Assembly (NCBI RefSeq): GCF_030551255.1
Contig: NZ_CP130630.1
Location: 6,119,501-6,183,500 of the forward strand
DNA: 64,000 bases
Direction of reading: 5' to 3'
Source: Streptomyces sp. NL15-2K
Lineage (GTDB): Bacteria > Actinomycetota > Actinomycetes > Streptomycetales > Streptomycetaceae
A model generated the notes under the pieces. It made no database searches, was not told the DNA's origin, and saw nothing but the letters and a program-made list of their open reading frames with translations. Below are positions 4,237-18,666 of the stretch, in pieces; position 1 is the first letter of the stretch, and every line of letters starts with the position of its first letter. Made by a program: the position numbers and the translations under genes.

Positions 4237-6576
4237 TCACGTCGCCTCAGGCGGCCGTCGCGGCGGCGGTGGTGCGGCCTGCGCATACGCTGCCTCCGGC
4301 GACAGCGACGCTCCCTTCGTGAAGGTCTCCCCGAACCCCGCCGCTCCCAGCGCGGTCGTCGCCGCGGCGGTGGTGCGGTCGACGTCCGGGCGTTCCGCGG
4401 CGGGGAGCGGCGCGCCCGTGGCGGCGCGGGCGGCGGAGGCGGCGCCGAGGAGGAGCGCCGCGGTCCCGGGGCGGTCCGCGAGGGCGTGGGCGGCGGCGAG
4501 GCCCTCCAGGGCGAGGGCGACTGCCCGGGGGTCGCCGGTGGTGAGGGCCGTTGCGTAGCCCTCCTCGTGGTGCGCCAGCGCACCCCGCGCGTCGCCGCGC
4601 AGCTCCGCGATGAAGCCCAGCTCCGCCAGGATCAGCGCGTTCGCCCCGTCGAGACCGACCTGGCGGTGCCAATCCAGGACCGTACGCATCCGGGCGGCGG
4701 CCTCGTCGAGGAGCCCCTCGCGGCGCGCGCCGAGGCCGAGCCCCAGCTCCGCGTTGATCTCGCCCGCACGGAAGCCGAGTTCGGCGGCGAGGCGCCGGGA
4801 CCGCTCGTGGTACTCGCGCGCCCTGCCGAGGTCGCCGGTGAGCAGCGCCGTCCGTCCGAGCCCGGACAGCAGGTCCGCGGCCTGGGTGGAGAGGCCGAAC
4901 TCCTCGGCGGTGACCAGCCCGCCCTGCCGCAGCCGGGCCGCCCGCTCGTAGTCGCCGTGGATCTCGGCGACCGACGCCAGCGGGTACACCGACCACAACT
5001 GGCCGCAGGCGTCCCCGACTTCGCCGAAGAGCTCCGCGCTGCGCCCCGCGTCCGCCTCCGTACCGGCCAGATCGCCCCGCAGCAGCCGCTGCATGGACCG
5101 GTCCGCCAGCGCGGCCGCCTCTCCCCAGCGCTCACCGAGCGCCCTGAAGCCGTCCAGTGACGCCTCGGTGAGCGCCTCGCCCTCCAGGAGATCCCCCGTC
5201 CCGCACAGGGCGTGAGCCAGGAACCACCGTGCCCACGCCGTCCCCACCGGGTCACCGAGCTGTTCGCACGCCTTGAGCGCCGTCTCGATCCGGGCCGCCC
5301 GGTCGGTGCCGTCGCCGGTCAGGATGGTGATGCCGGTCTGCCACACGCCGGCCTTCGCCCGCAGCGCCGCGTCCCCGCCGGGCAGCGCGAGCGCCCCGGC
5401 GACCGAGCGCCGCGCCTCGCCGAGCCGGCCGCGCAGGATCCAGTACCAGCAGAGCGCGTCGACGAGCCGGAGCGCGTGGTCCGTCTCACGCCGTTCGACC
5501 GCACCGTCCAGGGCCGAGCGCAGATTCGCGCTCTCGGTGTCCAGCCGTGACAGCCACGCGCCCTGCCGGTGTCCCCGCAGTTCGGGCTCCGCTGTCTCGG
5601 CGAGCCCCATGCAGTACGCGAGGTGCCGCCGTCGTACCGGCTCCGTCTCGTCAGCTTCCCTCATTCGCTCGACGCAGTACGCGGAGATGGACTCCAGCAG
5701 CCGGTAACGAGGGCCCTCGACCCCGTCGACGGCGACCACGAGCGACCGGTCCACCAGCCGCACCAGCAGGTTCAGTACGTCCCGGGCGTCGACCCCGTCG
5801 CCCGCGCACACCTCCTCGGCCGCCTCCAGCGTGCACCCCTCGGCATGCACGGCGAGCCGCCGCAGCACGGCCTGTTCGGGTTCGCTCAGCAGCTCCCAGC
5901 TCCAGTCGATCACCGCGCGCAGCGTCCGCTGGCGGGCCGGCGCACCCCGCTGCCCGGCGCTGAGCAGCCGGAACCGGTCGTCCAGCCCCTCCAGCAGCCG
6001 GTGCACACCGAGGGCCCGCACCCGGGTCGCGGCCAGCTCCAGGGCCAGCGGAATCCCGTCCAGCCGACGGCAGATGGCGCCGACCGCGTCCGCGTTGCGC
6101 GGATCGAGCGCGAAGCCGGGCGCGGCGGCCGCCGCCCGTGCCGAGAACAGGTCGACCGCGTCCCGCGGAGCGAGCGGCGGCACGGCCCACAGGGTCTCTC
6201 CGGCCAGCGCCAACGGCTCCTGACTGGTCGTCAGCATCACCAGCCCTGGAGCCGACCGCAGCAGCAGCTCAGCCAGGGCCGCGGCCTCGTCGATCACATG
6301 CTCGCAGTTGTCGAGGACGAGCAGCGTCCGCTTGCCGCGCAGCACCTCGGCGAGCCGGTTCGCCGCGTCGAAAGGTGGCTCCCCTTCGGGCCGTACGCCC
6401 CAGACCCCGTCGTCCCGCAACTCCATCGTGGCCGCGACGACCTCGGCCAGGGCACCGCCGGATCCGGCGAGTTCGACCAGCCATGCCCCGTCCGGGAAGC
6501 CGCCCTTGAGCTGCTCGGCGACGGCGACCGCGAGCCGGGTCTTGCCGACGCCGCCGGGTCCGGTAAGGGTGACCAG
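4237..6576 (-). pseudogene. 3' part of a split AfsR/SARP-type STAND regulator
   Basis: The frame reads LVTLTGPGGVGKTRLAVAVA (Walker A), then LLVLDNCEHVID (Walker B), LTTSQEPLALAGE, and GIPLALELAATRVRAL. This is the NB-ARC ATPase of AfsR-like regulators. About 500 residues of TPR-like helices follow, ending TKGASLSPEAAYAQ. The frame is open upstream only because it continues by chance into the tnpB element at 6581-8840. The sequence that should precede it, ending VGREDEVAAVRKLLGNRR, is at 8841-9086. The gene is therefore split by the element, and also lacks its DNA-binding domain through a separate deletion at about 9086. Confidence 0.85.
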
Positions 6577-6584
6577 CGTCTCAG

Positions 6585-6900
6585 ATGAGCTTAGGTTTTC
6601 CTGGGTGGGGCTGGGTTTTCGGCCCGGTCCCGGTGGAAAAGTGATCTCGGCTGTGCCCCGGGCTGTATCCGTCGTGTGACGGGGGTGGCGTGGGTGTGCA
6701 GGTGGAAGCCTGCGCCGAGTCTGGCCCCGTGTGGCTGGTGCCGGGTGGGGGTGCTCATCGTGTGCGGTGCCTGCCGCCGTCCGCGCCGCTGGGTGCGGTG
6801 GGTGGGTGACTGGGGCGTCCGCCCCGCCGGACGCTTTCCACTCGGGCCCGCAGCAGCGGTCTGCGCTGCGGGTGTTGTGGGTGGGGCGGGGGCCCTGCGT
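6585..6900 (-). ncRNA. candidate omega RNA overlapping the 3' end of tnpB
   Basis: This is the 3' portion of the element, from the distal tnpB codons to the right end. It is the only long part shared with the tnpB-less element at 198-680. Position and conservation fit the omega RNA scaffold of TnpB systems, with the guide formed by the regulator bases after the right end (complement of about 6560-6580). This is family knowledge plus local comparison; no structure was computed. Confidence 0.45.
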
Positions 6901-8672
6901 CGCTGCCTGGGCACAGGGCGGTTTCTCGTGGGGCCCGCTTTGGTCCGGTCCGCGGCAGTGTGCTGCGGACCGGACTCGGGGGCGGGCCTGGGGTGGGTGG
7001 TGTGCCGGACCGGCTGGTCCAGCTCCGGGGCCGTGCGGCGGATCACGTAGGTGCCACTCGCGCGGTCCAGGACGGTTGTGTGCTGGTGTTGCAGGCCGCG
7101 GGCGCCGATCCGCTGCCAGGCGGCGACGTCCCGGTCGGTGCTGTATCCGCAGGCGGTGTTGGGGCAGCTCGCCCATTTCCAGCCCGGTGTGGTGCGGTCG
7201 GGGGCGGCGCGGTGGCGGAAGGCGCTCAGGCATCTGGGGCAGTACCTGGAGGTGCCGCGGGCGGGGACGATGACCACCGTGATGCCGTATTTCGCGGCCT
7301 GGTGGCGGGTGTGGGTGACGATCTGTCCGCGCACACTGGAGGAGAGGCGGGTGTTGAGGGTGCGGCCCTTGCCCCGGGCCTCCATGTCCCGCAGGTCCTC
7401 CAGGTAGATCACCGACGCTCTCGCGGCGCGGGCGTGGCCGACCATGAAATGGGCGGCGGCCCTGGCGAGCTGCTCGTTCAGCCGCGTACGACGCTTGCTC
7501 ACCCGCGCGTGCTCGGTGCGCAGCACCGCCAGTTTCGCCGTCGTGAGCGGATCGGGGCGCAGCCCGGATGCGGTGTGGCCGTCGGTCAGGGACCGCAGGT
7601 GGGCGGCCTTGGCCCAGAGCTGTTCGGCCAGCACACGCAGCCGGTCGGCCTTGGCCAGCACCCCGTCCGGGCGGAAGAACACCGGCTGCCCGTTCGTGTG
7701 CACGGTCGGCTGGGTGCCGCCGGCCAGGGTCAGTGTCCCGCCGGTGAGGAGGGTGTTCAGCCCGTAGTCGAAGGCCACCGCCCGCACATGCCCGTCGCGC
7801 CGGGTCGTGGGCACGGCGGTGGTGTGGGCGACGTCCAGGCGCAGGCGTCCGCCGCGCAGGCGCAGGGTCGGGGCGTGCAGGGCGGCCGTGACGGGGATGG
7901 TGGGCGGCAGCCGGAACCGGATCACCACGGAGTGCCAGTCACCCCGGGTGCGCGGATCGGGCCGCACCGGCAGGCGCACGGTCAGCACCGCGTAGCGGGC
8001 CGGGTCGTCCTCGCAGCGGGCCAGCGTGGCCAGCTGCTTGTCGGCGGCGGCCAGCACCACCTGACGGCCGCCGCCCGGCGCCGCCTCCAGCTCACACAGA
8101 CCGGCGGGCAGCCGCCCATGCGTGGTGTGGAAGGCGGCCACCTGCCGGGTGCGGGCGCGCAGGATCGAGGCCGCCACACCCTGCCCGTCCGGACAGGCGG
8201 CCCGCAGCGCCTCCCACTCGCCCGCGGTGCGCCGCATCGGATCGGCGTCGGGGCCGGTGGGCCAGGTGGCCAGTACCGCGTCGGTGATCTGAGTACGCCA
8301 CCAGGCAGAGCGCAGCGCCCGCCCGGCCTGCTCCTCGGCGACCCGCCGCACCCGGTCAGGAACGTACAGTCCTTCGGGCACGGTGGCCGCCCAGCCCAGC
8401 ATCCGCAGCGCCATCCACGCGTTCGACGGCAGCCGCTGCCCCGACCGGTCCCGCCCGCAGGCGAGTTGGGCCAGGTCCGGACGGTTCCAGCGGGTGCCGG
8501 TCACTGACGTGCACATGCTCTCGACCAGGGCCGTCAGCCAGCCCACCCTCCCGGCCAGCACATCGGCGCCCAGGACCTCACCGGTGACGGTGTCCAGGCC
8601 GCGGAACGCGGACGCCGACGCGCACGCCACCCGCGCCGCCTGCCCCTCACCCAGCTCGACCTTCCGCCGCAC
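6591..8672 (-). CDS. tnpB: TnpB-family RNA-guided nuclease (IS605 OrfB type)
   Basis: The frame encodes 693 residues, longer than the roughly 400 of typical TnpB because of an N-terminal part of about 290 residues and a C-terminal tail. The RuvC-like catalytic residues are all visible: Asp in AVAFDYGLNTLL (about 302), Glu in VIYLEDLRDME (about 424), and Asp in STDRDVAAWQR (about 514). The zinc ribbon CPRC...CPNTAC sits between the last two. TnpB proteins are guided by an omega RNA made from the element's 3' end and cut the empty donor or target site. The low-complexity tail after residue 530 overlaps the presumed RNA region and may not be functional protein. The gene looks intact. Confidence 0.85.
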   Translation of the reverse strand: MRRKVELGEGQAARVACASASAFRGLDTVTGEVLGADVLAGRVGWLTALVESMCTSVTGTRWNRPDLAQLACGRDRSGQRLPSNAWMALRMLGWAATVPEGLYVPDRVRRVAEEQAGRALRSAWWRTQITDAVLATWPTGPDADPMRRTAGEWEALRAACPDGQGVAASILRARTRQVAAFHTTHGRLPAGLCELEAAPGGGRQVVLAAADKQLATLARCEDDPARYAVLTVRLPVRPDPRTRGDWHSVVIRFRLPPTIPVTAALHAPTLRLRGGRLRLDVAHTTAVPTTRRDGHVRAVAFDYGLNTLLTGGTLTLAGGTQPTVHTNGQPVFFRPDGVLAKADRLRVLAEQLWAKAAHLRSLTDGHTASGLRPDPLTTAKLAVLRTEHARVSKRRTRLNEQLARAAAHFMVGHARAARASVIYLEDLRDMEARGKGRTLNTRLSSSVRGQIVTHTRHQAAKYGITVVIVPARGTSRYCPRCLSAFRHRAAPDRTTPGWKWASCPNTACGYSTDRDVAAWQRIGARGLQHQHTTVLDRASGTYVIRRTAPELDQPVRHTTHPRPAPESGPQHTAADRTKAGPTRNRPVPRQRRRAPAPPTTPAAQTAAAGPSGKRPAGRTPQSPTHRTQRRGRRQAPHTMSTPTRHQPHGARLGAGFHLHTHATPVTRRIQPGAQPRSLFHRDRAENPAPPRKT

Positions 8673-8840
8673 CCTGTCACCCCCGCCCGGCCACCCAGAA
8701 CCGCTGTCCGATCATCGAACTCACTTACACAACGCACCCCGCCCGGAAAGGTCACGCAGCAACCGCAAGAGCCCCGAAGAGACCGGAAGAATCACAGCAA
8801 CACCAAGGAAACCCAAGCCAATCGGTCCGCTGTTAGTGAC

Positions 8841-9086
8841 CCTCCGGTTGCCGAGGAGTTTGCGTACGGCGGCGACCTCGTCCTCCCGGCCGACGAGCGT
8901 GCTGAACGGGGCGAGGATGTGCGTCCTGGTGCGGAAAGGAGCAAGGTCCTGACCGGTGGCGCCCAGCTCCGGGTCCTGCCGGAGCATCGCCCGCTGCAGC
9001 CCGGCCAGTTCGGGGCTCGGGTCGAGACCGAGTTCCTCCGCGAGCCGGGTCCGCAGCTCTTCGTATCCGGCGAGCGCCTCGCTCGG
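8841..9086 (-). pseudogene. middle fragment of the split AfsR/SARP-type regulator (BTAD end and linker)
   Basis: The minus-strand frame reads EALAGYEELRTRLAEELGLD, then ELAGLQRAMLRQDPEL and STLVGREDEVAAVRKLLGNRR. This is the end of the bacterial transcriptional activation domain followed by the linker into the NB-ARC domain. It belongs in frame before the part at 4237-6576. The N-terminal OmpR-type DNA-binding half is missing. The next bases on the right already encode an MFS transporter on the opposite strand, so the 5' end was lost by a deletion. Confidence 0.85.
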
Positions 9087-10412
9087 TATCGCCGGCGCGG
9101 CCGTGCTTCCGTCCACGCTCTCCCTGATCAGCCACATGTTCACCGACCCGCGACAGCGCGCCACGGCCATCGCGATGTGGGTGACCGCGCTCTCGGTGGG
9201 CCTCGCCGTCGGACCGGTCGTCGGCGGTGTGATGCTGGCGAGCTGGTGGTGGGGCTCGGTCTTCCTCATGGGCGTGCCCATCATGCTGCTCGCGCTGGGC
9301 ACGGCCCGGGCGCTGCTGCCCGAGTACCGCGACCCGGCCCCTGGACCGATGGATCTGGCGAGCGTCGGGCTGTTCCTGCTGGCCGTCCTGCCGGTGGTAT
9401 ACGCGATCAAGAGCCTGGCGTCGGGAGCCCCCGCCTGGGAGCCCGCTGTCGCCTTCGCGGCCGGGACGGTCTGCACTGTCGCGTTCGTACGCCGGCAGAA
9501 CCGGCTGGCCACGCCGCTGCTGGAGCTGCGGCTCTTTCACGACCGGGCCTTCACCGGGGCGCTACTCACCCTGCTGCTCGGGATGATGGCCCTCAACGGC
9601 GTCGAGTACCTCGTCCCGCAGTACCTCCAGGCCGTGGCGGGGCAGTCGCCTCTGGAAGCCGGACTGTGGCTGTTGCCCGGAGCGGCGGGGCTGATCGTCG
9701 GCTCCCAGCTCACGCCGGTCCTCGCACGCCGGATCCGTCCGGCGTACGTCCTGGTCGGCGGCCTGCTGCTCTCCCTCACCGGCTACGCGGCGATCGCCCT
9801 GTCGGAGGGCGTCCTGACCGCCTCGCTGGGGCTGACCGTGATCATGTTCGGGGTCGCCCCGATCAGCGTCCTCGGCACGGTCCTGGCGGTCGGCGCCGCA
9901 CCCGAGGAGAAGGCGGGGCCGCCGCGGCGACCGGCCAGACGGCCTACGACCTGGGCCTGGCCCTGGGTATCGCGGTCACGGGTACCCTCGCGGTCGCGGT
10001 CTACCGTGGCGAGATCCCCGACGAAGCCCCCGCCGCGGCCAAGGACACCATGGGCGCGGCGATCGCCGCCGCGGAACACCTCCCGGACGGTGCCTCGCTG
10101 CTGGCCACCGCGAAGGACGCCTTCACCACCGGGCTTCAGACGGCGGCCACCATGAGTGGGGCCTTGGCGCTGGCGACGGCGGTCCTGGCGGCGACGCTGC
10201 TGCGGCACATCCCGGCGATCGGCGCGGTTGCCCCCGCCGAGACGGCGACGGGGACGGCGACGGCGACGGGGAAGGGGACTGAGTCGGGGACGGCGACGGC
10301 GACGGGGACTGAGTCGGAGACGGCGGCCGCGGCAGAGATCCTGCTCGCTCCTGGTTCACGGGGCGAGGATCGCAGCGAGGAGCGGACGTACGCGGTCGGC
10401 CAGGACCGGTAG
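9087..10412 (+). pseudogene. MFS drug-exporter remnant, 5'-truncated and frameshifted
   Basis: The frame starts inside GIAGAAVLPSTLSLISHMFT, followed by typical DHA2-type helices (LAVGPVVGGVMLASWWWGSV, YLVPQYLQAVAGQSPLEAGL). At least the first four helices are missing. Near 9917 the frame breaks: GAAPEEKAG runs into nonsense, while the correct continuation AAAATGQTAYDLGLALGIAV is in the next frame, so one base appears lost. The C terminus ends in a Thr/Ala/Glu-rich tandem repeat. The gene was originally divergent to the AfsR-like regulator; the shared promoter region and both 5' ends are deleted. Confidence 0.85.
10240..10326 (+). repeat. low-complexity GACGGC/GACTGAGTCGG repeat at the MFS gene end
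   Basis: Imperfect repeats of GGCGACGGCGACGGGGACTG (two long units plus partial ones) encode a TATGTES-like tail of the MFS remnant. It looks like slippage expansion in a gene no longer under constraint. Confidence 0.75.
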
Positions 10413-10964
10413 TTGCAGTGCGGCCTCCGCCCACGCCGGGAGGTCGTCCGCGACCCACAGCCGGCGTGCTTCGTGGAGGAGGTACACGTAGCGGTCGTCG
10501 ATTTTCGCGAGTTCCCGTTCGTACGGTTTGACGCGCCTGAACAGGACCTCGTCGTGCCCGGCGGCGGACCAGATCCGGCCCATCTGGTGCATCGACTTTC
10601 CCGTGGCCACGATCTCATCGGCGAGGCTGTCGGGGACCGGTATCCCGATGGTGCCGTCGGCGAGCCGGACCTCGTCGCGGGTGCGTCGGGCGGCCCGGCC
10701 CAGCAACCAGATCGCCAGCGCGCACACGGCCGTCACCGCCACCCCCACCCACCAGTAGCCGGTGCCCACGGTGGCGACGATGAGGAGTGGGGACCACCAC
10801 AGGGGACGTGCCACGAGCAGGGCGCGGTCGTGGGCCGACGCCTGTCGGACGGCCCTGGACTGGGCCGCGCGGTCGGTGTCCGGTGCGTTGTGGACGATGC
10901 GGGCGGGGTCCGGGCCGTCTCGGAACGGGAAGTACCGAGCGGCCCTGGGGCTGTCCGTGGTCAT
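10356..10964 (-). CDS. hypothetical protein with two membrane segments
   Basis: This 202-residue protein is not assigned to a known family. It has a polar N terminus (residues 1-50), then two adjacent hydrophobic segments, WWSPLLIVATVGTGYWWVGV and VTAVCALAIWLLG, and a soluble C-terminal half. That half contains DEIVATGKSMHQMGRIWSAA and EVLFRRVKPYERELAKIDDR and is rich in charged helical sequence. It ends by overlapping the tail of the MFS remnant. It is divergent from the TPR/CHAT gene set that starts 132 bp away, which makes a functional link possible but unproven. Confidence 0.65.
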   Translation of the reverse strand: MTTDSPRAARYFPFRDGPDPARIVHNAPDTDRAAQSRAVRQASAHDRALLVARPLWWSPLLIVATVGTGYWWVGVAVTAVCALAIWLLGRAARRTRDEVRLADGTIGIPVPDSLADEIVATGKSMHQMGRIWSAAGHDEVLFRRVKPYERELAKIDDRYVYLLHEARRLWVADDLPAWAEAALQLPVLADRVRPLLAAILAP

Positions 10965-11095
10965 GGTTGGTCTGTACCCAGCGGTGCGGGAGGGGCAACG
11001 GCGCCTTGTGGCATGGGAGTTCGCCCTGGGCGGGCAGGGATCGGTCCGCTAGCCTGAGAACTGGTCTCCTGTCATGGAGCAGGGGGGAGGATCAC

Positions 11096-12019
11096 ATGGG
11101 GCTGTGGTCCCGGGGTGACGGCACCGACGACGATGTCGAGATGATGCGGATCGGCAACCAACTCCTCCATGACCGGGACTGGCCGGGTGCGGCGGTGGCC
11201 TATCGAAGGGCGGCCCGCTCGAAGGATCCCAGGACCGCGGCGCTGTCGTCGATCACACTGGGAGTGGCGTACGCCCGTATGGGGCAGGTCCGCCGGGCGC
11301 GCCGGATGTGGCGGCGTGCCAGGGCCAAGGGCGATCCGGCGGTGGCGCTCATCGCGAGCATGTTCCTGCTGAAAGCGGCGGTCGATCCCTCGCTCGGAGG
11401 CGCGCAGGAAGCGGCTCTGTTCGAACTGCTCGACCTGGACCAGGCCGATCCGTCCCTGTCGAAGGACGCCATGATCCGCGCGAGCAATGTGAAGATCGCG
11501 GTGAGCCGGGCCCGTGCGCAGGGGACGGAGGAGTCACTGGCCGCCGCCGAGTTCATGCGGCGCGCCTTCGAGCACGAGCGGGGCGGTGAGGTGCGCAAGG
11601 CGCGTGAGCTCTACCAGAAGGTGATCGACTCCGGCCATCCCGACCACGCTCCCAACGCGGCGGATGCGCTGGGCCTGCTGCTGGAGGAGCAGGGCGACCT
11701 CGACGGCGCCGAGGTCGCCTACCGCCGGGCGATGGCGTCCGGGCATCCCGAGCACGTCGCCTGGTCGGCGGTCCGGCTGGGGGACCTCCTCGTGCGGCGG
11801 CAGGACCTCCGCCGGGCCGTCGCGGCGTACCAGCAGGCCATGGACACCGGTGATCCGACGTGCGCGCCAGTGGCCGCGGACATGCTGGGCACCGTGCTGA
11901 GTGTTCTCGGCGATGTGCGCGAAGCGCGCCGGGCCTGGGAGTACGCCGTCAGGCACGGCTCTGCGGACATCGCCGCGGCGGCCCGCGAGAAGCTGCGGAA
12001 AGCGGCGGGCGCGTCCTGA
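11096..12019 (+). CDS. TPR-repeat protein, first gene of the CHAT-STAND set
   Basis: The ATG at 11096 follows a strong ribosome binding site (AGGGGGGAGG at 11081-11090). The 307-residue protein is built of helical repeats of TPR/Sel1 type, such as GNQLLHDRDWPGAAVAYRRA, DALGLLLEEQGDLDGAEVAY and LGTVLSVLGDVREARRAWEY. It has no signal peptide, membrane segment or catalytic motif, so it is a probable cytoplasmic scaffold or sensor. The next gene starts 2 bp after its stop, so the two are co-translated. Its likely partner is the CHAT protease-ATPase downstream. Confidence 0.8.
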   Translation: MGLWSRGDGTDDDVEMMRIGNQLLHDRDWPGAAVAYRRAARSKDPRTAALSSITLGVAYARMGQVRRARRMWRRARAKGDPAVALIASMFLLKAAVDPSLGGAQEAALFELLDLDQADPSLSKDAMIRASNVKIAVSRARAQGTEESLAAAEFMRRAFEHERGGEVRKARELYQKVIDSGHPDHAPNAADALGLLLEEQGDLDGAEVAYRRAMASGHPEHVAWSAVRLGDLLVRRQDLRRAVAAYQQAMDTGDPTCAPVAADMLGTVLSVLGDVREARRAWEYAVRHGSADIAAAAREKLRKAAGAS

Positions 12020-12021
12020 TC

Positions 12022-15000
12022 ATGCCCGACCGTGTGATCGCCGACTTCGCAGGCCCCGACGAGGTCAGCCTGACGTGCTGCCGGTCCGGCGTGACCGAGC
12101 GCACCGGGCCGTTCGCCTTCGCCTCCCCCCTCGGCCCGCAGGACCGGCAGCACCTGCGCTGGTATGTGGAGGACCGCCCCGACCGGCCGTCCGGCGGCGA
12201 TGCCGCGCGGGCGGAGCTCGTGGAGGGGCGCCTTGCGGACCTGGGACACCGGTTGTACGAAGCGCTGCTGGGGCACGAGCGCGCGACAGCGGCACGGGCA
12301 CTGGCCGGTACGGCGGGCTGCGAGTTCGTCGTGCGTTCGGACGACGTGACTGTGCTCGACCTGCCGTGGGAACTGCTGCGCGCTCCGGAAGCCGACGCCC
12401 CGCTGGCCACGGCCGCGCGAGGCGTGACGCGGTGTCTGCCCGGTGCCGAGCTGGACGAAGTCGCCCTTCCAGCCGAACGGTTGCGCCTGCTGCTGGTGAT
12501 CGGCCGCCCGGCCGGCACGGCGGACGTGCGCTACCGCTCCATCGCCAAGCCCCTGCAGGAGTGCGTCACAGGGGTGTCCGCATCGGCGGAGCTGACCGTC
12601 CTGCGGCCGCCGACGCTTCGGGCGCTGGAGCAGCGGCTGACGGAGGCGCGTGACCAGGGCAGGCCGTTCAGCGTGCTCCATTTCGACGTGCACGGGGAAC
12701 TGACGGTGGACGGCGGGACGCTGCTGCTGGAGACGGACCGGGGCGGCCCGCACCGGGTGACCGTGTCGCGCCTCGCGCAGGTCGTCGCGGCGGCCGGAGT
12801 GCCGGTCGTGGTGCTCAACGCGTGCGAGTCGGGGGCGGTGGGCGCGCACCTCGAAACGTCGCTTGCCGCGCGGCTGTCCCTGGAGGGCACGCCGTCCGTG
12901 GTGGCCATGGGTTACCGCATGAAGGTGACCGCGGCGGCCGAGTTCACGGCGTCCTTCTACGAACGGCTCCTCGCCGGAGACGACGTGACGCTCGCCGTGC
13001 GCGCCGGGCGCCGACGTCTCTGGGAGGATGCCGCCTCGCACCACGGGGAGTCCCCGCCGCCGGCCGGCAACTGGCTGATTCCCGTGCACTATCTGCGGCG
13101 TGAGGCGCGGTTTCCGAAGCTGTCCGCACGGCGCGAACTGTCCATGCGAGGTGAACTGTCCGCGGGGCGGGAACCACCTGCGCGGCGCGAACCGTCCGCG
13201 CGGCGCGAACCATCCGCACGGCGCGAACCATCCGCACGGCGCGAACCATCCGCACGGCGCGAACCGTCCGCGCGGCACGCCGGAAGCGGTCCGCCGCCTG
13301 GAGAGGATCCGCTGATCGGCCGCGACGACGTGTTCCTGTCCCTGGAACTGGCCGCTCGCCGCCATCGGGTACTGCTGCTCCACGGCATGGGCGGAATCGG
13401 CAAGTCCGCCGCCGCGGCGGCCTTCAGCCGATGGTGGCGCGACACCGGCGGGGTCGACGACCCGCGCTGGGTGGTCGAGACCTCGTTCACCCGGGGCCCA
13501 CAGAGCTTCCGGGACCTGCTGGACCACATAGGCCGCCAGATCGCCCCCGCCCCTTCCACGTCCGGCTTCAGCACGCGCGAGCAATGGCACGCGCATGTGC
13601 GCGGCCTGCTGCTGACCCGCCGGATCCTGTTGGTGTGGGACGGCTTCGAGACCGTCGGGACGATGCCCGGCCCGGACACGGCATGGTCCGAAGCCGACCG
13701 TCGGCACCTGGCCGCGCTCGTCCGTGACATCGCCGACGAAGGCCGGAGCACCGTTCTGCTCACCAGCCGGACGCACGAGACCTGGCTCGGCGACATACGA
13801 CGGGTCCGGGTCCCGCCGCTGCCCGACGACGAGGCCCGGCAGTACACACGGTCCCTGGACGACGGCCGGACGCCCCCGGAGGAGGCGGACGTCGTCGAGC
13901 GGGAACTCGCGGGTCATCCACTCGCACTGCGCGAGATCCGGCCGCTGCTCACGACCGCCGAACCCTGGGCCGTACTGGAGCTGTTGCGCGGAGAGACCCC
14001 GCGCTCGGAACCGCGGCTGCCCCCGGCTCTCACCGCGGACGTCGCCCACTCCTTCCGCCACCTGCCGGCCGATGTCGCCCGGTTCCTCACCGCGGTCTGC
14101 CTGCTGCCCAGGACGGTGACGGCGGAGGTGCTGACCCGGCTGTCCGCCACGCGGTCCGGGCGGTTCGCCGGGGTGACCGCGGCCACCTGGGCGGACGTTC
14201 TCGAACGGGCCGCCGCCGTGGGCCTGTTGGAGGACCTGGGGGGTGGCCGGTACGCGAAGCACCCGGCCCTGTCCGCCTTTCTCGCGGAGCGGTGGCGTGC
14301 CGAGACCGGCGACGACGACCGTTTTCGAGTGGAACGGGAGCAGGCCATACGGGAACTGGCACAGCACGAGCCCAACCCCGCTGTGCGGTTCCTCGGTGAG
14401 TCGGGAGCGATCACCGGGCATGCGCTGATCGACGACCAGGCAGCCATGGTCGGCATGACGCAGTCCTTCTCCGTACTGCGCGAGCTCAGACTGTGGTCGG
14501 GGGCGGAAGCAGAACTGCTCCCTCTGCGGGCGTTCTTCGACCGGATCGGCCTCGCAGGCTCGATCGTCGGCATGACGGCCCGCTTCCGGGCAAGGCTGGA
14601 CGAAACCGAGCTGGACGAAACCGAGCCGGACGCCACCCTCACCTGGCCGTTCCGCCCGGGCGGCCTGGACGGGATGGTGTGGTTCGCCGTACGCCACCAC
14701 TACACACCGGCGCCCGATCAGGCGGGGGCACTGGTGCGCGCCTGCCGCAAGGTGGTCCGGCTCCTCGAGCGCCGGCCTGTGTCCCCCCGGCGGCAGCGGC
14801 GCCTGCTCTCCGTGCACCACGAGCTGGCGCGGATCTCCCGGGAACGGGCGAACCTCACCGACGCCGAGCAGCATGCTCGCCAGGCTCTCGCCCTCGCTGG
14901 CGATCCCGGTACCTGGACCGATCACGACGAGGACGTCCTGCAGATCCCTTTCGAGCCCTTCGTGTTCGCCGAAGAGCAGTCGATCCGCGGCGAGATCCTC

Positions 15001-15636
15001 GGTGAGCTGAGCGTCATCGCCTCCCAGCAGAAGCGGTGGGACGTGGCGGACACATACCTGCGACAGGCGTTGGCCGTAGCCGAGTCCGTAGGAGATCCTC
15101 GGGCCATCGCGACAGCCCTCGCCGATCTGGGCTCGGTGACCCTGAGGAAGGGAGACCTGCGCGGGGCCCGCCGCTGGTACGTCCGGGCCCTGGCCCGCTA
15201 CACCGAGTACGGGGCCCGTGGCCGGATGGCCGAGATCTACGGCAACCTGGGTGACATCGCCTCCGCCGAACTGCGCCTGGCCGACGCCGAGGACTGGTAC
15301 CGCCGCGCCCGGGGCGTCCTGGAGCAGGTCGACGCCCCGCGCGACACTGCCTGGAACAACTTCCGGCTCGGAGGGGTCTGCCGCGACCGTGGACGCCTGG
15401 CGGAGGCCGAGGCATGGTACCGGCAGGCGCTGGAGGGCTTCGAGTCGTTGAACGACGGATACCGTACGGCGATGGTCCACGACGCGCTCGGGCGGACCGC
15501 GTTCGACCTGGGCGACCTGGACGGCGCTCGCGTCCGGCACAAGCAGGCGTACGGACTGTTCCGCAGGCTGGGCAGGCGCGCGGAGGCCGAAGACAGCCGC
15601 GCCGAACTGCGACGGCTCGCGCGGCTGGACCGGTGA
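12022..15636 (+). CDS. CHAT protease - STAND ATPase - TPR signalling protein
   Basis: This is a 1204-residue multidomain protein. Residues 1 to about 370 form a CHAT caspase-like protease domain with the catalytic pair His224 in LHFDVHGEL and Cys268 in VVLNACESG. Next is a low-complexity linker of 6-residue repeats (about 369-418). The NB-ARC/STAND ATPase follows, with Walker A GMGGIGKS at 455-462, ILLVWDGFE as Walker B, and STVLLTSRTHE. The last 350 residues are TPR repeats. In related proteins, ligand binding by the TPRs drives ATP-dependent assembly that activates the protease, often for cell suicide or immunity. Its substrate is unknown. It starts 2 bp after the upstream TPR gene and is followed by a small membrane protein gene. 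Confidence 0.85.
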   Translation: MPDRVIADFAGPDEVSLTCCRSGVTERTGPFAFASPLGPQDRQHLRWYVEDRPDRPSGGDAARAELVEGRLADLGHRLYEALLGHERATAARALAGTAGCEFVVRSDDVTVLDLPWELLRAPEADAPLATAARGVTRCLPGAELDEVALPAERLRLLLVIGRPAGTADVRYRSIAKPLQECVTGVSASAELTVLRPPTLRALEQRLTEARDQGRPFSVLHFDVHGELTVDGGTLLLETDRGGPHRVTVSRLAQVVAAAGVPVVVLNACESGAVGAHLETSLAARLSLEGTPSVVAMGYRMKVTAAAEFTASFYERLLAGDDVTLAVRAGRRRLWEDAASHHGESPPPAGNWLIPVHYLRREARFPKLSARRELSMRGELSAGREPPARREPSARREPSARREPSARREPSARREPSARHAGSGPPPGEDPLIGRDDVFLSLELAARRHRVLLLHGMGGIGKSAAAAAFSRWWRDTGGVDDPRWVVETSFTRGPQSFRDLLDHIGRQIAPAPSTSGFSTREQWHAHVRGLLLTRRILLVWDGFETVGTMPGPDTAWSEADRRHLAALVRDIADEGRSTVLLTSRTHETWLGDIRRVRVPPLPDDEARQYTRSLDDGRTPPEEADVVERELAGHPLALREIRPLLTTAEPWAVLELLRGETPRSEPRLPPALTADVAHSFRHLPADVARFLTAVCLLPRTVTAEVLTRLSATRSGRFAGVTAATWADVLERAAAVGLLEDLGGGRYAKHPALSAFLAERWRAETGDDDRFRVEREQAIRELAQHEPNPAVRFLGESGAITGHALIDDQAAMVGMTQSFSVLRELRLWSGAEAELLPLRAFFDRIGLAGSIVGMTARFRARLDETELDETEPDATLTWPFRPGGLDGMVWFAVRHHYTPAPDQAGALVRACRKVVRLLERRPVSPRRQRRLLSVHHELARISRERANLTDAEQHARQALALAGDPGTWTDHDEDVLQIPFEPFVFAEEQSIRGEILGELSVIASQQKRWDVADTYLRQALAVAESVGDPRAIATALADLGSVTLRKGDLRGARRWYVRALARYTEYGARGRMAEIYGNLGDIASAELRLADAEDWYRRARGVLEQVDAPRDTAWNNFRLGGVCRDRGRLAEAEAWYRQALEGFESLNDGYRTAMVHDALGRTAFDLGDLDGARVRHKQAYGLFRRLGRRAEAEDSRAELRRLARLDR
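13126..13275 (+). repeat. 18-bp tandem repeat encoding ARREPS linker units
   Basis: Five near-identical 18-bp units (GCACGGCGCGAACCATCC type) encode ARREPS, preceded by three degenerate units (ARRELS, MRGELS, AGREPP). They lie in frame between the protease and ATPase domains of the CHAT-STAND protein. The array is a likely length-variable, positively charged hinge. Confidence 0.85.
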
Positions 15637-15724
15637 CCGTGGCCGCGACATCCGGGAAGCACCCAGATCCGCGCTCTATACGATGGCCGGGCTCAGGCAC
15701 CCGTCGGCGAACCACGGAGGAACT

Positions 15725-16075
15725 GTGAACGACCAGGTTGCGCGTACCGCCCGAGCCGCGGCCGAGGTCCTGGCAGCCGAGTTCGACCGGCCCGACATCG
15801 TCGACGAAGTCGAAGCGGGGCTCTACGCCAGCGCCGAAGGACGACGCCCCGGCGACTACCTGGATCCCGTCGCTCTCGGCAGCCTGGTCGTCAGCGTGGC
15901 CGGCCTCGCGTGGACGATCTACACCGACCGCAGGAACGCGCGGAAGGACACGGACCTGACCGAGCTTGTCCGCACCCTGCGCGCGGAGCTGCCCGAGACC
16001 GGGGAAACGACCACCGACCGGGACCGCGTCATCACCATCGTCGTCAGGGAGACGATCCGCGCCGAGGAGGAATGA
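15725..16075 (+). CDS. small single-helix membrane protein, third gene of the CHAT-STAND set
   Basis: The GTG at 15725 is preceded directly by GGAGGAACT, giving a 116-residue protein. The first 45 residues are acidic and helical (RTARAAAEVLAAEFDRPDIV). One membrane segment follows, VALGSLVVSVAGLAWTIYTD (about residues 48-67). The C-terminal tail is charged (TDLTELVRTLRAELPETGET) and ends IVVRETIRAEEE. It lies 88 bp after the CHAT-STAND gene on the same strand. I do not recognise a named family. Its place and build suggest a membrane anchor, target or effector partner of the CHAT protein, possibly cleaved by it; that is inference. Confidence 0.7.
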   Translation: MNDQVARTARAAAEVLAAEFDRPDIVDEVEAGLYASAEGRRPGDYLDPVALGSLVVSVAGLAWTIYTDRRNARKDTDLTELVRTLRAELPETGETTTDRDRVITIVVRETIRAEEE

Positions 16076-16102
16076 CTGTCGTCGGCCTCACGCGAAGGGG
16101 AG

Positions 16103-16324
16103 GTGGTCCTTCAGGAGCTTCGGATCGCCGTCCTTGCGCAGAGGGAAGGCGCTGCCCTGGAGGCTCTGGCCACGTCCCTGCCCCAGGTCTCCCGCCACCT
16201 CGCCCGGCTGCGCGACGCCGGCCTCGTCACGGTGGAACGCGACGGCCGGCGTGCCTACTACCAGCTGAAGCTGGAACGGGTACGCCGCATCGGCGACGAC
16301 CTGCTCACAGCTCTGTTCCACTGA
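16103..16324 (+). pseudogene. ArsR-type winged-helix regulator remnant
   Basis: A 73-residue frame reads QVSRHLARLRDAGLVTVERD and then GRRAYYQLKLERVRRIGDDL, the recognition helix and wing of an ArsR-family repressor. Upstream, LRIAVLAQREGAALEALATS retains the first helices, but with a gap before the recognition helix and no dimerisation N terminus. Members are normally 90-120 residues. It ends 10 bp before a MITE. I take it as a decayed gene, though a very short functional protein cannot be excluded. Confidence 0.55.
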
Positions 16325-16334
16325 CCGCGCGCTA

Positions 16335-16601
16335 GGGCCTGTTGCGAAAGTCCCGCCTGCCCCGCGACGCCATGCACGCTCCCCCACTGCCTTAAAGGCG
16401 TGGGAGGGGCCCCCACTCGCCGCACCGGGCGCAGGCCCACGTACAACCAGTACGAGGGCCTGCGCCCGGCACGCCGAGAGTACGCACCTACGCGGACATC
16501 AGCCTCCCCCACTCTCGGCTTCGCTCGAGCGGGGGGACCCCCATCGCGGCGGGCGCGGGGCCCGCCCTCCGGGCGGACGACGGGACTTTCGCAACAGGCC
16601 C
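16335..16601. mobile_element. 267-bp MITE with perfect 21-bp terminal inverted repeats
   Basis: The left end GGGCCTGTTGCGAAAGTCC (16335 onward) and its exact complement ending at 16601 form 21-bp perfect inverted repeats, and TA flanks both sides as an apparent target duplication. There is no gene inside. An internal 14-bp hairpin (CCGGGCGCAGGCCC at 16425-16438 with 16456-16469) is present. The ends resemble IS5-group elements of Streptomyces, which could move it in trans. It separates the ArsR remnant from the IclR gene. Confidence 0.85.
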
Positions 16602-16692
16602 TACCGGCCCCGAAGCGGGCGGCCCGGAGCGGCCGGAGCGTGACCGCTGCTTCTCGGCTCTCGCCGACGAGGCCCCGGGCGTACCCGCGGCC

Positions 16693-17481
16693 TCAGCGCC
16701 AGTCGGGTATGCCCGGGACTGGCGGCAGATGGGCTTCGATCTTCGCTCGTACCTCCCGCATCACGGAGACGATGCGGACCTCGTGTTCCCGGGTCAGCCG
16801 GGCCACCGGGACCGAGCAGCTCATGGCGTCGGTGGCCGGTGCGTCGTACCGCAGGGCGAAGCCGAAGCCGGCGATGCCGGTCACCGTCTCCTCGCGGTCG
16901 ATGGAGTAGCCGCGCTCGCGCACCTGGGCCAGGTCGGCGAGCAGTGCGGCACGGTCGGTGCGCGTGTTCTCCGTGAGGGCCGTCAACGGCCCGTCCCCGA
17001 TCGGCAGTTCGTCGTCGGGGCGCTCGGCGAGCAGCGCCTTGCCGAGGGCGCCGGCATGGGCGGGGACGCGGCGGCCGACACGGCTGATGGTGCGCAGGTA
17101 CTCGTGGGACTCGCGGGTGGCGAGGTAGACGACGTCCGGGCCGTCGAGCCGTGCCATGTGGATCGTCTCGCCGAGCGCGTCCGACGCCTCGTCGAGGTAC
17201 GGCCGGACCGCACGGATGCGCCGGTCGCCGTCGAGATAGCTGGTGCCGGTGAGCAGGGCGCGGATCCCGATGCCGTAGAGGGAGCCGGTGGCGTCGGTGC
17301 GGACCCATCCGCAGTCGACGAGGGTCTGGAGCAGCTGGTACATGCTGCTGCGCGGCACGCCCAGGTCCTCCGCGAGCTGGTCCAGTCGCGAGGGCTGCTC
17401 GCCCCGCGCGGCGAGCAGTTCCAGCAGCGCGACGGTCCGGGCCGCCGACTTCACACCGCGGACACCTCTCCCCTCCGACAT
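16693..17481 (-). CDS. IclR-family regulator of the glucarate genes
   Basis: The ATG at 17481 gives 262 residues, the normal IclR length; the open frame extends upstream to 17562 but that part is not IclR-like. The N-terminal winged helix is clear (VKSAARTVALLELLAARGEQ, DQLAEDLGVPRSSMYQLLQT). The C-terminal GAF-like effector domain contains LGETIHMARLDGPDVVYLAT, VPAHAGALGKALLAE and GYSIDREETVTGIAGFGFAL. It is divergent from the kdgD-permease-gudD operon and most likely controls it in response to glucarate or a breakdown product. Binding sites are probably the direct repeats at 17553-17583. Confidence 0.9.
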   Translation of the reverse strand: MSEGRGVRGVKSAARTVALLELLAARGEQPSRLDQLAEDLGVPRSSMYQLLQTLVDCGWVRTDATGSLYGIGIRALLTGTSYLDGDRRIRAVRPYLDEASDALGETIHMARLDGPDVVYLATRESHEYLRTISRVGRRVPAHAGALGKALLAERPDDELPIGDGPLTALTENTRTDRAALLADLAQVRERGYSIDREETVTGIAGFGFALRYDAPATDAMSCSVPVARLTREHEVRIVSVMREVRAKIEAHLPPVPGIPDWR

Positions 17482-17552
17482 GGGCCCATCGTAAATCCGC
17501 GTCAATCCGAGGCTGCCCACCCGTTGACCCACCCCGTTCACCAATCTAACCT

Positions 17553-17583
17553 CCATCTGCATACGTAGACGCCATCTGCATAC
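17553..17583. promoter_or_regulatory. candidate IclR operator: CCATCTGCATAC direct repeat
   Basis: CCATCTGCATAC occurs at 17553-17564 and again at 17572-17583, 19 bp apart, just upstream of the kdgD start at 17595 and in the divergent region with the IclR gene. Two turns of helix between copies would suit a dimer or tetramer of an IclR protein. The second copy abuts the kdgD ribosome binding site, so binding there would block expression. Confidence 0.5.
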
Positions 17584-17594
17584 AGGGATGCGAC

Positions 17595-18563
17595 ATGACA
17601 GGTATCAGCGCGGAGGCCGCAGGGGTCGCGGGGGTCGCTCAGCGACTCCGTGACGGAATGGCGAGCGGGGTGCTGTCCTTCCCCCTCACGAACTTCCGGG
17701 ACGACGGCGGCCTCGACCTGGACGCCTACCGGGCCTACCTGGCCGTCCGGTTGGCCACCGCACCCGGCGCGGTGTTCCCGGCCTGCGGGACCGGAGAGTT
17801 CTTCTCGCTGGACGAGGACGAGTACCGGGCGGTCGTGCGGACCACGGTCGAGGTCGCCGACGGACGGTTGCCGGTGGTCGCGGGCATCGGCTACGGCTGG
17901 GCGCAGGCGCTGCGCTTCGCCCGTATCGCGGAGGAAGCCGGCGCCGACGCCGCGCTGGTACTGCCCCACTACCTGGTCGGGGCCCCGCAGGACGGTCTGG
18001 TGGAACAGCTGCGCCGGATCGCCGAAGGCACCCGGCTGCCACTCATCGCGTACCAGCGCGGCCAGGTCGCCTTCACCGCCGACGGCCTGCGCCGGATCGC
18101 GCGGATCCCCACCGTCATCGGCCTGAAGGACGGCCACAGCGACCTCGACCGGCTCCAGCGCCTCACGCTCGCCGCGCCCGACGGCTTCCTCTTCTTCAAC
18201 GGCGCCGCCACCGCCGAGATCCAGGCCCGCGCCTACGCCACGGTCGGCGTCCCCGCCTACTCCTCCGCCGTCCACGCCTTCGCACCCGAGATAGCGAACG
18301 CCTTCTTCACCGCGCTGCGGGACGGGGACGACGCGGGCGTGACCACGCTCCTGCGCGAGTTCTACGTCCCGCTGGTCGAACTACGTGACCGGGTGCCGGG
18401 CTACGCCGTCTCCCTGGTCAAGGCCGCCGCCCGGCTGCGCGGCTTCCCGGTCGGCCCGGTGCGCGCCCCGCTCACCGACCCCGGCCCGGTCGACCTCGCC
18501 GACCTGGAGAAGGTGCTGGACCACGGCCTGAGCCTGGTCGGCACCGTACGACGCCCCGCTTGA
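17595..18563 (+). CDS. kdgD: 5-dehydro-4-deoxyglucarate dehydratase
   Basis: This 322-residue member of the DHDPS/NAL aldolase family converts 5-keto-4-deoxy-D-glucarate to 2-oxoglutarate semialdehyde, water and CO2. Family marks are FPLTNFRDDGGLD near the N terminus, PACGTGEFFSLDEDEY (the substrate carboxylate loop), the active-site Tyr in LIAYQRG (about 152), and the Schiff-base Lys in IGLKDGHSD (about 178). The length is normal. It is the first gene of an operon with a GntP-type permease and glucarate dehydratase, so it catalyses the second step of D-glucarate breakdown. A downstream semialdehyde dehydrogenase is not in the window. Confidence 0.92.
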   Translation: MTGISAEAAGVAGVAQRLRDGMASGVLSFPLTNFRDDGGLDLDAYRAYLAVRLATAPGAVFPACGTGEFFSLDEDEYRAVVRTTVEVADGRLPVVAGIGYGWAQALRFARIAEEAGADAALVLPHYLVGAPQDGLVEQLRRIAEGTRLPLIAYQRGQVAFTADGLRRIARIPTVIGLKDGHSDLDRLQRLTLAAPDGFLFFNGAATAEIQARAYATVGVPAYSSAVHAFAPEIANAFFTALRDGDDAGVTTLLREFYVPLVELRDRVPGYAVSLVKAAARLRGFPVGPVRAPLTDPGPVDLADLEKVLDHGLSLVGTVRRPA

Positions 18564-18579
18564 CGAACCGGGGCGCCTC

Positions 18580-18666
18580 TCGTGCCCGCCCGATGAACCT
18601 CGCGGGTGCGCGTCGTGCCCGCCCGACGAACCCGCGGGTGCGGCGCGTCGTGCCCGCAGGATGACC
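18580..18666 (+). repeat. 33-bp direct repeat between kdgD and the permease gene
   Basis: TCGTGCCCGCCCGAYGAACC followed by CGCGGGTGCG occurs twice in full, at 18580 and 18613, and once in part near 18649. It fills the kdgD-permease gap. It has no obvious hairpin. It may be slippage DNA. Confidence 0.7.

Follow-up and report, generated by a model that had tools for sequence, protein, structure and literature searches.

For the EACC1-caspase systems, Kaur et al. (2020, PMC7159879) proposed that a conserved transmembrane helix with small residues acts as a sensor and thereby switches on the caspase. From the description given there, these systems are the nearest known design to the locus reported here, in which a CHAT-STAND-TPR protease is encoded next to a 116-residue partner protein (PMC7159879). 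The locus lies in a stretch of 64,000 nucleotides (hereafter the window) from Streptomyces sp. NL15-2K (contig NZ_CP130630.1, positions 6,119,501 to 6,183,500), at 6.12 Mb in a 12.4-Mb genome of 3 contigs. In the type III-E Craspase, the substrate of the protease Csx29 is a protein of the same system, Csx30, which is described as a sigma-factor inhibitor (PMC10028731), and in gated nuclease-protease pairs the substrate is likewise found within the same system (PMC12799240). CATRA/CATASP caspase ternary systems have also been named (PMC8195603).

Relatives of the CHAT-STAND-TPR protein are frequent in actinobacterial data, where at least 188 were counted, and no report on the target of such a protease was found in the open-licence literature. 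Csx29 is a TPR-CHAT protein that is not known to carry a STAND domain and has its TPRs on the N-terminal side, SAVED-CHAT (8tl0) is activated via SAVED filaments and not through a STAND-TPR part and is not known to have such a partner, and in CATRA/CATASP systems the gene of a small protein stands with a caspase-clan protease. No description of the CHAT-STAND-TPR protease together with this partner was found in the open-licence literature either, and one may exist elsewhere. The STAND-protease conflict architecture is known, and the partner belongs to an undescribed, strongly conserved family whose function is predicted here; together, the two genes resemble a device for cell death or defence of a kind not yet described.

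Recurrence of the protease-partner pair

Genes were called on the basis of codon-position statistics and start sites. The conserved unit very probably consists of two genes, the CHAT-STAND-TPR protease and its 116-residue partner:

12022..15636, forward strand: core gene 1, CHAT-STAND-TPR protein of 1204 residues (Pfam CHAT, NACHT and TPR matches)
15716..15720, forward strand: ribosome-binding site GGAGG of the partner gene (read in the sequence)
15725..16075, forward strand: core gene 2, partner protein of 116 residues with a GTG start (adjacency or fusion to the CHAT gene; AlphaFold2 model)

Starting from the protease, relatives were collected with a CHAT query of 13 rows, five of which had been found via the partner, and the best 80 of the 126 CHAT relatives in named genomes were examined. 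The partner adjoins the protease on the same strand, or is fused to it, in 38 of these 80 loci, and in 32 of 74 once six genomes that had also been reached via the partner (L051, L055, L063, L085, L086 and L105) were removed. It lies on the 3' side in 27 of the 38 loci, as in the window, on the 5' side in 10, and is fused to the C-terminus of the protease in one (L041); where the partner is 3', its domain begins 0–64 nucleotides past the end of the CHAT frame in 22 of the 27 loci. The C-terminus of the protease also reads into the partner in two database proteins, P0213 (which has TPR domains) and P0218 (judged by eye). A scan of the 14,633 stop-to-stop open reading frames of the window and 91 loci with the partner profile gave 50 matches at E < 0.1, 49 of which have an adjoining CHAT gene, the remaining one (L033) being situated at a contig end. 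The Walker A motif is present in all 49 partner-positive rows.

Within the genus, searches that started from the partner found it in 7 of 199 genomes when one sequence was used and in 11 of 392 when a profile was used, the own genome being included in both counts, and a CHAT gene stood beside the partner in each of the 11 found by profile. At the level of the class, the partner was found in 2 of 394 genomes (own included), and the match from another genus (G214) sits at the end of a contig. The association of the small protein with CHAT-STAND genes, which had been put forward in an original prediction made from the letters of the window, was recovered both from the CHAT loci and from the genomes of the genus.

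The pair occurs in Actinomycetota of many families, in three loci whose labels read Alphaproteobacteria, Rhodospirillales or Azospirillum (L054, L065 and L089) and in a metagenome-assembled genome of Phycisphaerae (L079), where the partner match is the weakest (E 3.5e-6). A chance arrangement of unrelated genes would fit a 307-residue TPR gene and a divergent gene that flank the pair in the window, but recurrence with close spacing across Actinomycetota, the three alphaproteobacterial-type loci and the Phycisphaerae genome refutes it for protease and partner, and its probability as an account of the neighbourhood is negligible.

Co-divergence and loss

The CHAT tree was built from 80 of 81 rows, L092 being left out as too short. 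One branch (Shimodaira-Hasegawa-like approximate likelihood ratio test, SH-aLRT, 100) divides 50 rows from 30; all 39 pairs, including the window, are found among the 50, and none of the 30 rows outside this pair group has the partner. Because the branch of the window is long (2.01), its position inside the pair group is uncertain. CHAT and partner have diverged together, as their distances correlate over 38 pairs with r = 0.77 (Mantel test, 0 of 2000 permutations as high).

Eleven rows inside the pair group are without the partner: five are cut by contig ends, four belong to Herbidospora, and the other two are L070 and L068. In the Herbidospora CHATs the predicted catalytic His is replaced in 4/4 (HFDGGG, HFDGP) and the Cys in 1/4, with Walker A kept, and the partner-profile scan did not find the partner at any of the four loci. 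Judged from the lost His, these copies would be a naturally dead protease that was kept in place. His and partner have been lost together in this lineage, and the partner is thereby connected with proteolysis and not with the STAND or TPR portions of the protein. Downstream of the Herbidospora copies (L088, L091, L096 and L100), the same transporter-like genes were seen by eye in 4/4 species.

The protease

Pfam matches in the 1204-residue protein comprise CHAT (PF12770; 75.4 bits against a cut-off of 24, residues 74-340), NACHT (PF05729; 26.7 bits, exactly at the cut-off of 26.7, residues 449-610) and C-terminal TPR repeats (TPR_12 and MalT-type TPR matches, residues about 988-1188). The gene is organised as follows:

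12022..13116, forward strand: CHAT protease domain with N-terminal subdomain, residues 1-365
12691..12693, forward strand: codon of the predicted catalytic His224, motif HFDVHG (alignment of 45 CHATs)
12823..12825, forward strand: codon of the predicted catalytic Cys268, motif LNACES (alignment of 45 CHATs)
13122..13276, forward strand: 18-bp tandem repeat in 8.6 copies, encoding a hexapeptide-repeat linker between CHAT and STAND (Tandem Repeats Finder)
13366..13851, forward strand: STAND (NACHT-type) nucleoside triphosphatase (NTPase) core with Walker A GMGGIGKS at residue 455 (PF05729 at cut-off; Walker A found)
14983..15609, forward strand: C-terminal TPR array (TPR_12 and MalT-type TPR matches)

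Both dyad residues and the Walker A motif are intact and stand where they had been predicted (His224, Cys268 and residue 455). D222, H224 and G225 as well as N266, A267 and C268 are invariant in 45 CHAT rows, a selection of ours that omits, among others, the four Herbidospora copies and L083 (without dyad motifs) and L034/L086 (dyad motifs in a second frame piece). The model of the CHAT domain has the caspase/separase/Csx29 fold and matches caspase-clan proteases. By strand order, His224 follows strand 218-222 and Cys268 follows strand 262-265, so that the model places the two at the ends of adjacent core strands, in agreement with the catalytic pairing that had been proposed for them. We consider the CHAT domain a putative caspase-clan peptidase with an intact dyad, and the C-terminal TPRs the putative sensor of an NLR-like STAND NTPase protein. 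The hexapeptide-repeat array of the linker is shorter in the close relative P0011 and was not seen in the other rows of the query alignment.

The partner protein

Neither the partner nor the 202-residue protein of the divergent gene had a match in Pfam, PADLOC or NCBIfam at E ≤ 1. The partner profile search (7994 candidates scored) yielded at least 214 proteins; among the 120 listed, most are named 'hypothetical protein', two 'uncharacterized membrane protein' and one carries a TPR name, and the sole one with Pfam domains is P0213, whose domains belong to its TPR part. Conservation was counted over 123 proteins, namely 118 of the at least 214 from the profile search and five from another search, and two segments were distinguished:

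15836..15874, forward strand: loop, residues 38-50, motif P-x-[QRD]-Y-x-D-P (low model confidence)
15875..15937, forward strand: hydrophobic helix H3, residues 51-71, the membrane helix of the original prediction (123-member alignment)

D47, V56, A59 and W63 are invariant in all 123 members. In the loop, P42 is present in 119 of the 121 rows that have a residue at this column, Y45 in 116/123, D47 in 123/123 and P48 in 122/123; the segment could be a docking or cleavage site, and model confidence is lowest over its residues 41-50 (predicted local distance difference test, pLDDT, about 56). H3 is the most conserved segment of the protein, with a mean entropy of 0.80 bit vs. 1.39-1.99 in the other helices. 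The AlphaFold2 model (34 rows), made with a program that is not membrane-aware, is a compact five-helix bundle with a pLDDT of 87.8 and a predicted template-modelling score (pTM) of 0.81. The hydrophobicity of H3 is marginal (median Kyte-Doolittle 1.56 over columns 49-67; ≥ 1.6 in 44/123 members), and nine members have a charged or strongly polar residue inside these columns. The earlier description as a single-helix membrane protein was not borne out by these five predicted helices and this hydrophobicity, because of which a membrane nature of the partner is uncertain; H3 could form the core of a soluble bundle, span the membrane, or alternate between the two.

If H3 does cross the membrane, the partner could be an EACC1-like sensor or anchor. 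Its single transmembrane helix would then keep the protease at the membrane and signal damage to the membrane or from phage entry, upon which the protease would cut other targets or itself. The design would be the same as in EACC1-caspase pairs, which also consist of two genes, are prevalent in actinobacteria and combine a caspase-clan protease with a small protein whose one hydrophobic helix is strongly conserved and contains small residues (PMC7159879). The median best-window Kyte-Doolittle value is close as well (1.66 in 34 partner members vs. 1.79 in 21 EACC1), basic residues follow H3, and the two database names mentioned above point to a membrane protein. On the other hand, a compact bundle is predicted with a pTM of 0.81, fewer than half of the members (44/123) reach 1.6 over columns 49-67, the residue-by-residue conservation of H3 goes beyond what a lipid anchor needs, and the partner is not EACC1 by Pfam or hhalign. 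We regard this explanation as rather unlikely.

The identity with EACC1 (PF19953) was rejected on two counts, as 0/34 members match it in Pfam at E ≤ 1, and hhalign against 21 EACC1 segments returned a probability of 1.2 (control halves: EACC1 99.8, partner 100). Against this, L089 gave a weak EACC1 hidden Markov model score (E 0.006, set of 44 sequences). An ALGSL-like helix occurs in some members of both families, for which reason a remote link or convergence of the two is possible. The systems differ further in that the partner gene is usually 3' here and 5' there, in that the partner model is all-helical whereas EACC1 has alpha+beta extensions, and in that all paired proteases here carry Walker A (49/49), whereas up to 50 alternative C-terminal domains are given in the EACC1 paper (PMC7159879). 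The host also carries the described EACC1 type of small protein, one of the three EACC1 genes of the genome being located about 12.5 kb left of the window (C1:6106702-6107001).

Two further candidates were discarded. A bacterial gasdermin is contradicted by the lack of Pfam gasdermin matches in 34 members and by the 116-residue all-helical model. CATASP (PF20271) and CATRA gave no match at E ≤ 1 in the protease (P0002), the partner (P0003) or the 34 partner proteins; 0 matches were also obtained in the own genome, in a search whose positive control was silent too. A soluble chaperone or inhibitor that holds the protease off, like securin on separase, would agree with a compact bundle encoded next to the protease, but the hydrophobicity and conservation of H3 exceed the needs of an inhibitory tail and both 5' and 3' gene orders were found, and we regard this role as quite improbable.

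Proposed mechanism

The reading we favour, tentatively and somewhat short of an even bet, is a two-gene NLR-like protease module in which STAND activates the protease and the protease in turn acts on the partner; that the partner is the actual substrate is a serious possibility which we hold with some doubt. The TPRs would sense a cue, ATP-driven STAND assembly would bring the CHAT domains together, and the active protease would act on the partner, probably by cutting the exposed loop 38-50 or 72-77. Cleavage could free or refold the conserved helix H3, and the released helix might then perturb the membrane or nucleate a death complex. The partner would in that case be more than a plain anchor, either an effector gated by proteolysis or a switch that sits near the membrane and controls the protease. 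It stands out as a dedicated, co-inherited candidate target, marked by an extreme sequence signature and by a lineage in nature that has presumably lost catalysis.

Bacterial gasdermin and CARD-NLR systems resemble this scheme in combining an NLR-like switch, a protease and a membrane-acting effector after proteolysis (PMC13236601), the effector role being a proposal in our case. They differ in using a trypsin-like protease instead of CHAT (PMC13236601), and the partner here is a protein of 116 residues with an all-helical model and without a Pfam match. Activation of the Csx29 Craspase differs as well, being RNA-guided (PMC10028731). In its most far-reaching version, the CHAT-STAND-TPR protein would be 'inflammasome and caspase in one chain', gating a latent five-helix partner whose near-invariant H3, once released by proteolysis, attacks the membrane, which we rate as rather unlikely. 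Actinomycetota, Alphaproteobacteria and a planctomycete would then possess an analogue of gasdermin in miniature and all-helical form, a comparison that is equally doubtful. Should the partner indeed act on the membrane under the control of proteolysis, it would add a new and very small protein to the death systems gated by a protease, a logic shared by gasdermins and, in part, by Craspase.

Several points weigh against proteolysis of the partner. The frequency of the pair was estimated with a CHAT query partly built on partner-found copies. In L041 the partner domain is joined to the C-terminal end of the protease itself, which would be suitable for an inhibitor or an anchor too. The Herbidospora loss is a single evolutionary event in which the Cys is kept in three of four copies. 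L070 keeps the dyad without having the partner (transposase-like genes were noted nearby by eye), L068, on a 4.1-kb contig, also has no partner, and most CHATs outside the pair group carry the dyad motifs without it. Foldseek found no significant match to the partner model, and cleavage, toxicity and binding of the partner are predictions.

Genomic setting

Two other genes had been counted with the pair as a third and a possible fourth member:

11096..12019, forward strand: TPR protein gene, 307 residues (Pfam TPR matches), co-directional with and 2 bp upstream of the protease gene
10356..10964, reverse strand: divergent gene of a 202-residue protein with two hydrophobic helices (without Pfam match), outside the conserved unit

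Three genes do lie in one direction with a 2-bp gap between the first two (11096-12019, 12022-15636 and 15725-16075), as had been described. A conserved set of three or four genes was not confirmed, as neither the TPR gene nor the divergent gene had a detected relative near the other pairs. The former had no relative at E ≤ 1e-10 among the open reading frames of the other loci and a match at E ≤ 1e-20 in 1/101 genomes, its own; by these comparisons it is a local neighbour or a local addition, not part of the conserved core. In a search of 101 genomes, the divergent gene was matched outside the own genome only twice, in both cases weakly and in part (E about 9e-4), and its proposed membership was not upheld.

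Seven relatives that share the IclR/DHDPS flank (78-90% identity; chosen from 20 loci) match the region 8000-18600 of the window in blastn only from about 16.69 kb on. The cassette is absent in 7/7 of them, but so is all else to its left, which therefore indicates an accessory region and not a clean insertion. Among the rows listed for the neighbours of 22 loci there was no sign of a defence island, and a comparison of 119 neighbour proteins with PADLOC gave isolated matches among the rows listed, the 25 families listed out of 38 matching one neighbour each. Such surroundings would fit a module that regulates development or stress responses in multicellular actinobacteria, for instance programmed lysis or allorecognition, rather than an anti-phage system, as would the transporter-like genes shared by the Herbidospora copies. 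Opposed to this are the patchy presence of the pair (11/392 genus genomes), the absence of the module beside the shared right flank in 7/7 relatives and the STAND-peptidase architecture, which is described for conflict systems (PMC7159879, PMC8195603), and we consider such a regulator improbable. For the favoured protease module we infer an anti-phage role.

To the left of the pair, a TnpB-like protein (Cas12f1-like TNB domain) is encoded on the reverse strand, in 6591-9512 and 4237-7233, between two regulator-like pieces that were labelled by eye (BTAD-like, 8721-9512; NB-ARC-like, 4237-6426), as if the TnpB-like gene had been inserted into a large regulator gene. Elsewhere in the same genome (C1:7145000-7162000; L018 6208-9487), the gene of a CHAT-WD40 protein of 923 residues overlaps a gene of 171 residues without a Pfam match, which makes another pair of CHAT and small gene. 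The cyanobacterial CHAT-STAND loci have a different, mutually homologous protein of ~150 residues with long hydrophobic segments, located roughly 0.3-2.6 kb downstream (L073 9430-9882, L074 12754-13203, L076 14299-14745, L077 11878-12314 in two frame pieces, L078 5751-6200, L082 13189-13611 and L084 11386-11826); those of L073 and L074 had no Pfam match. In L013 (8050-13692), the CHAT gene is in two pieces on the minus strand, 8050-11163 and 11809-13692, and a reverse-transcriptase-like open reading frame (10938-11957; by eye of the group II intron type) overlaps the gap between them on the opposite strand.

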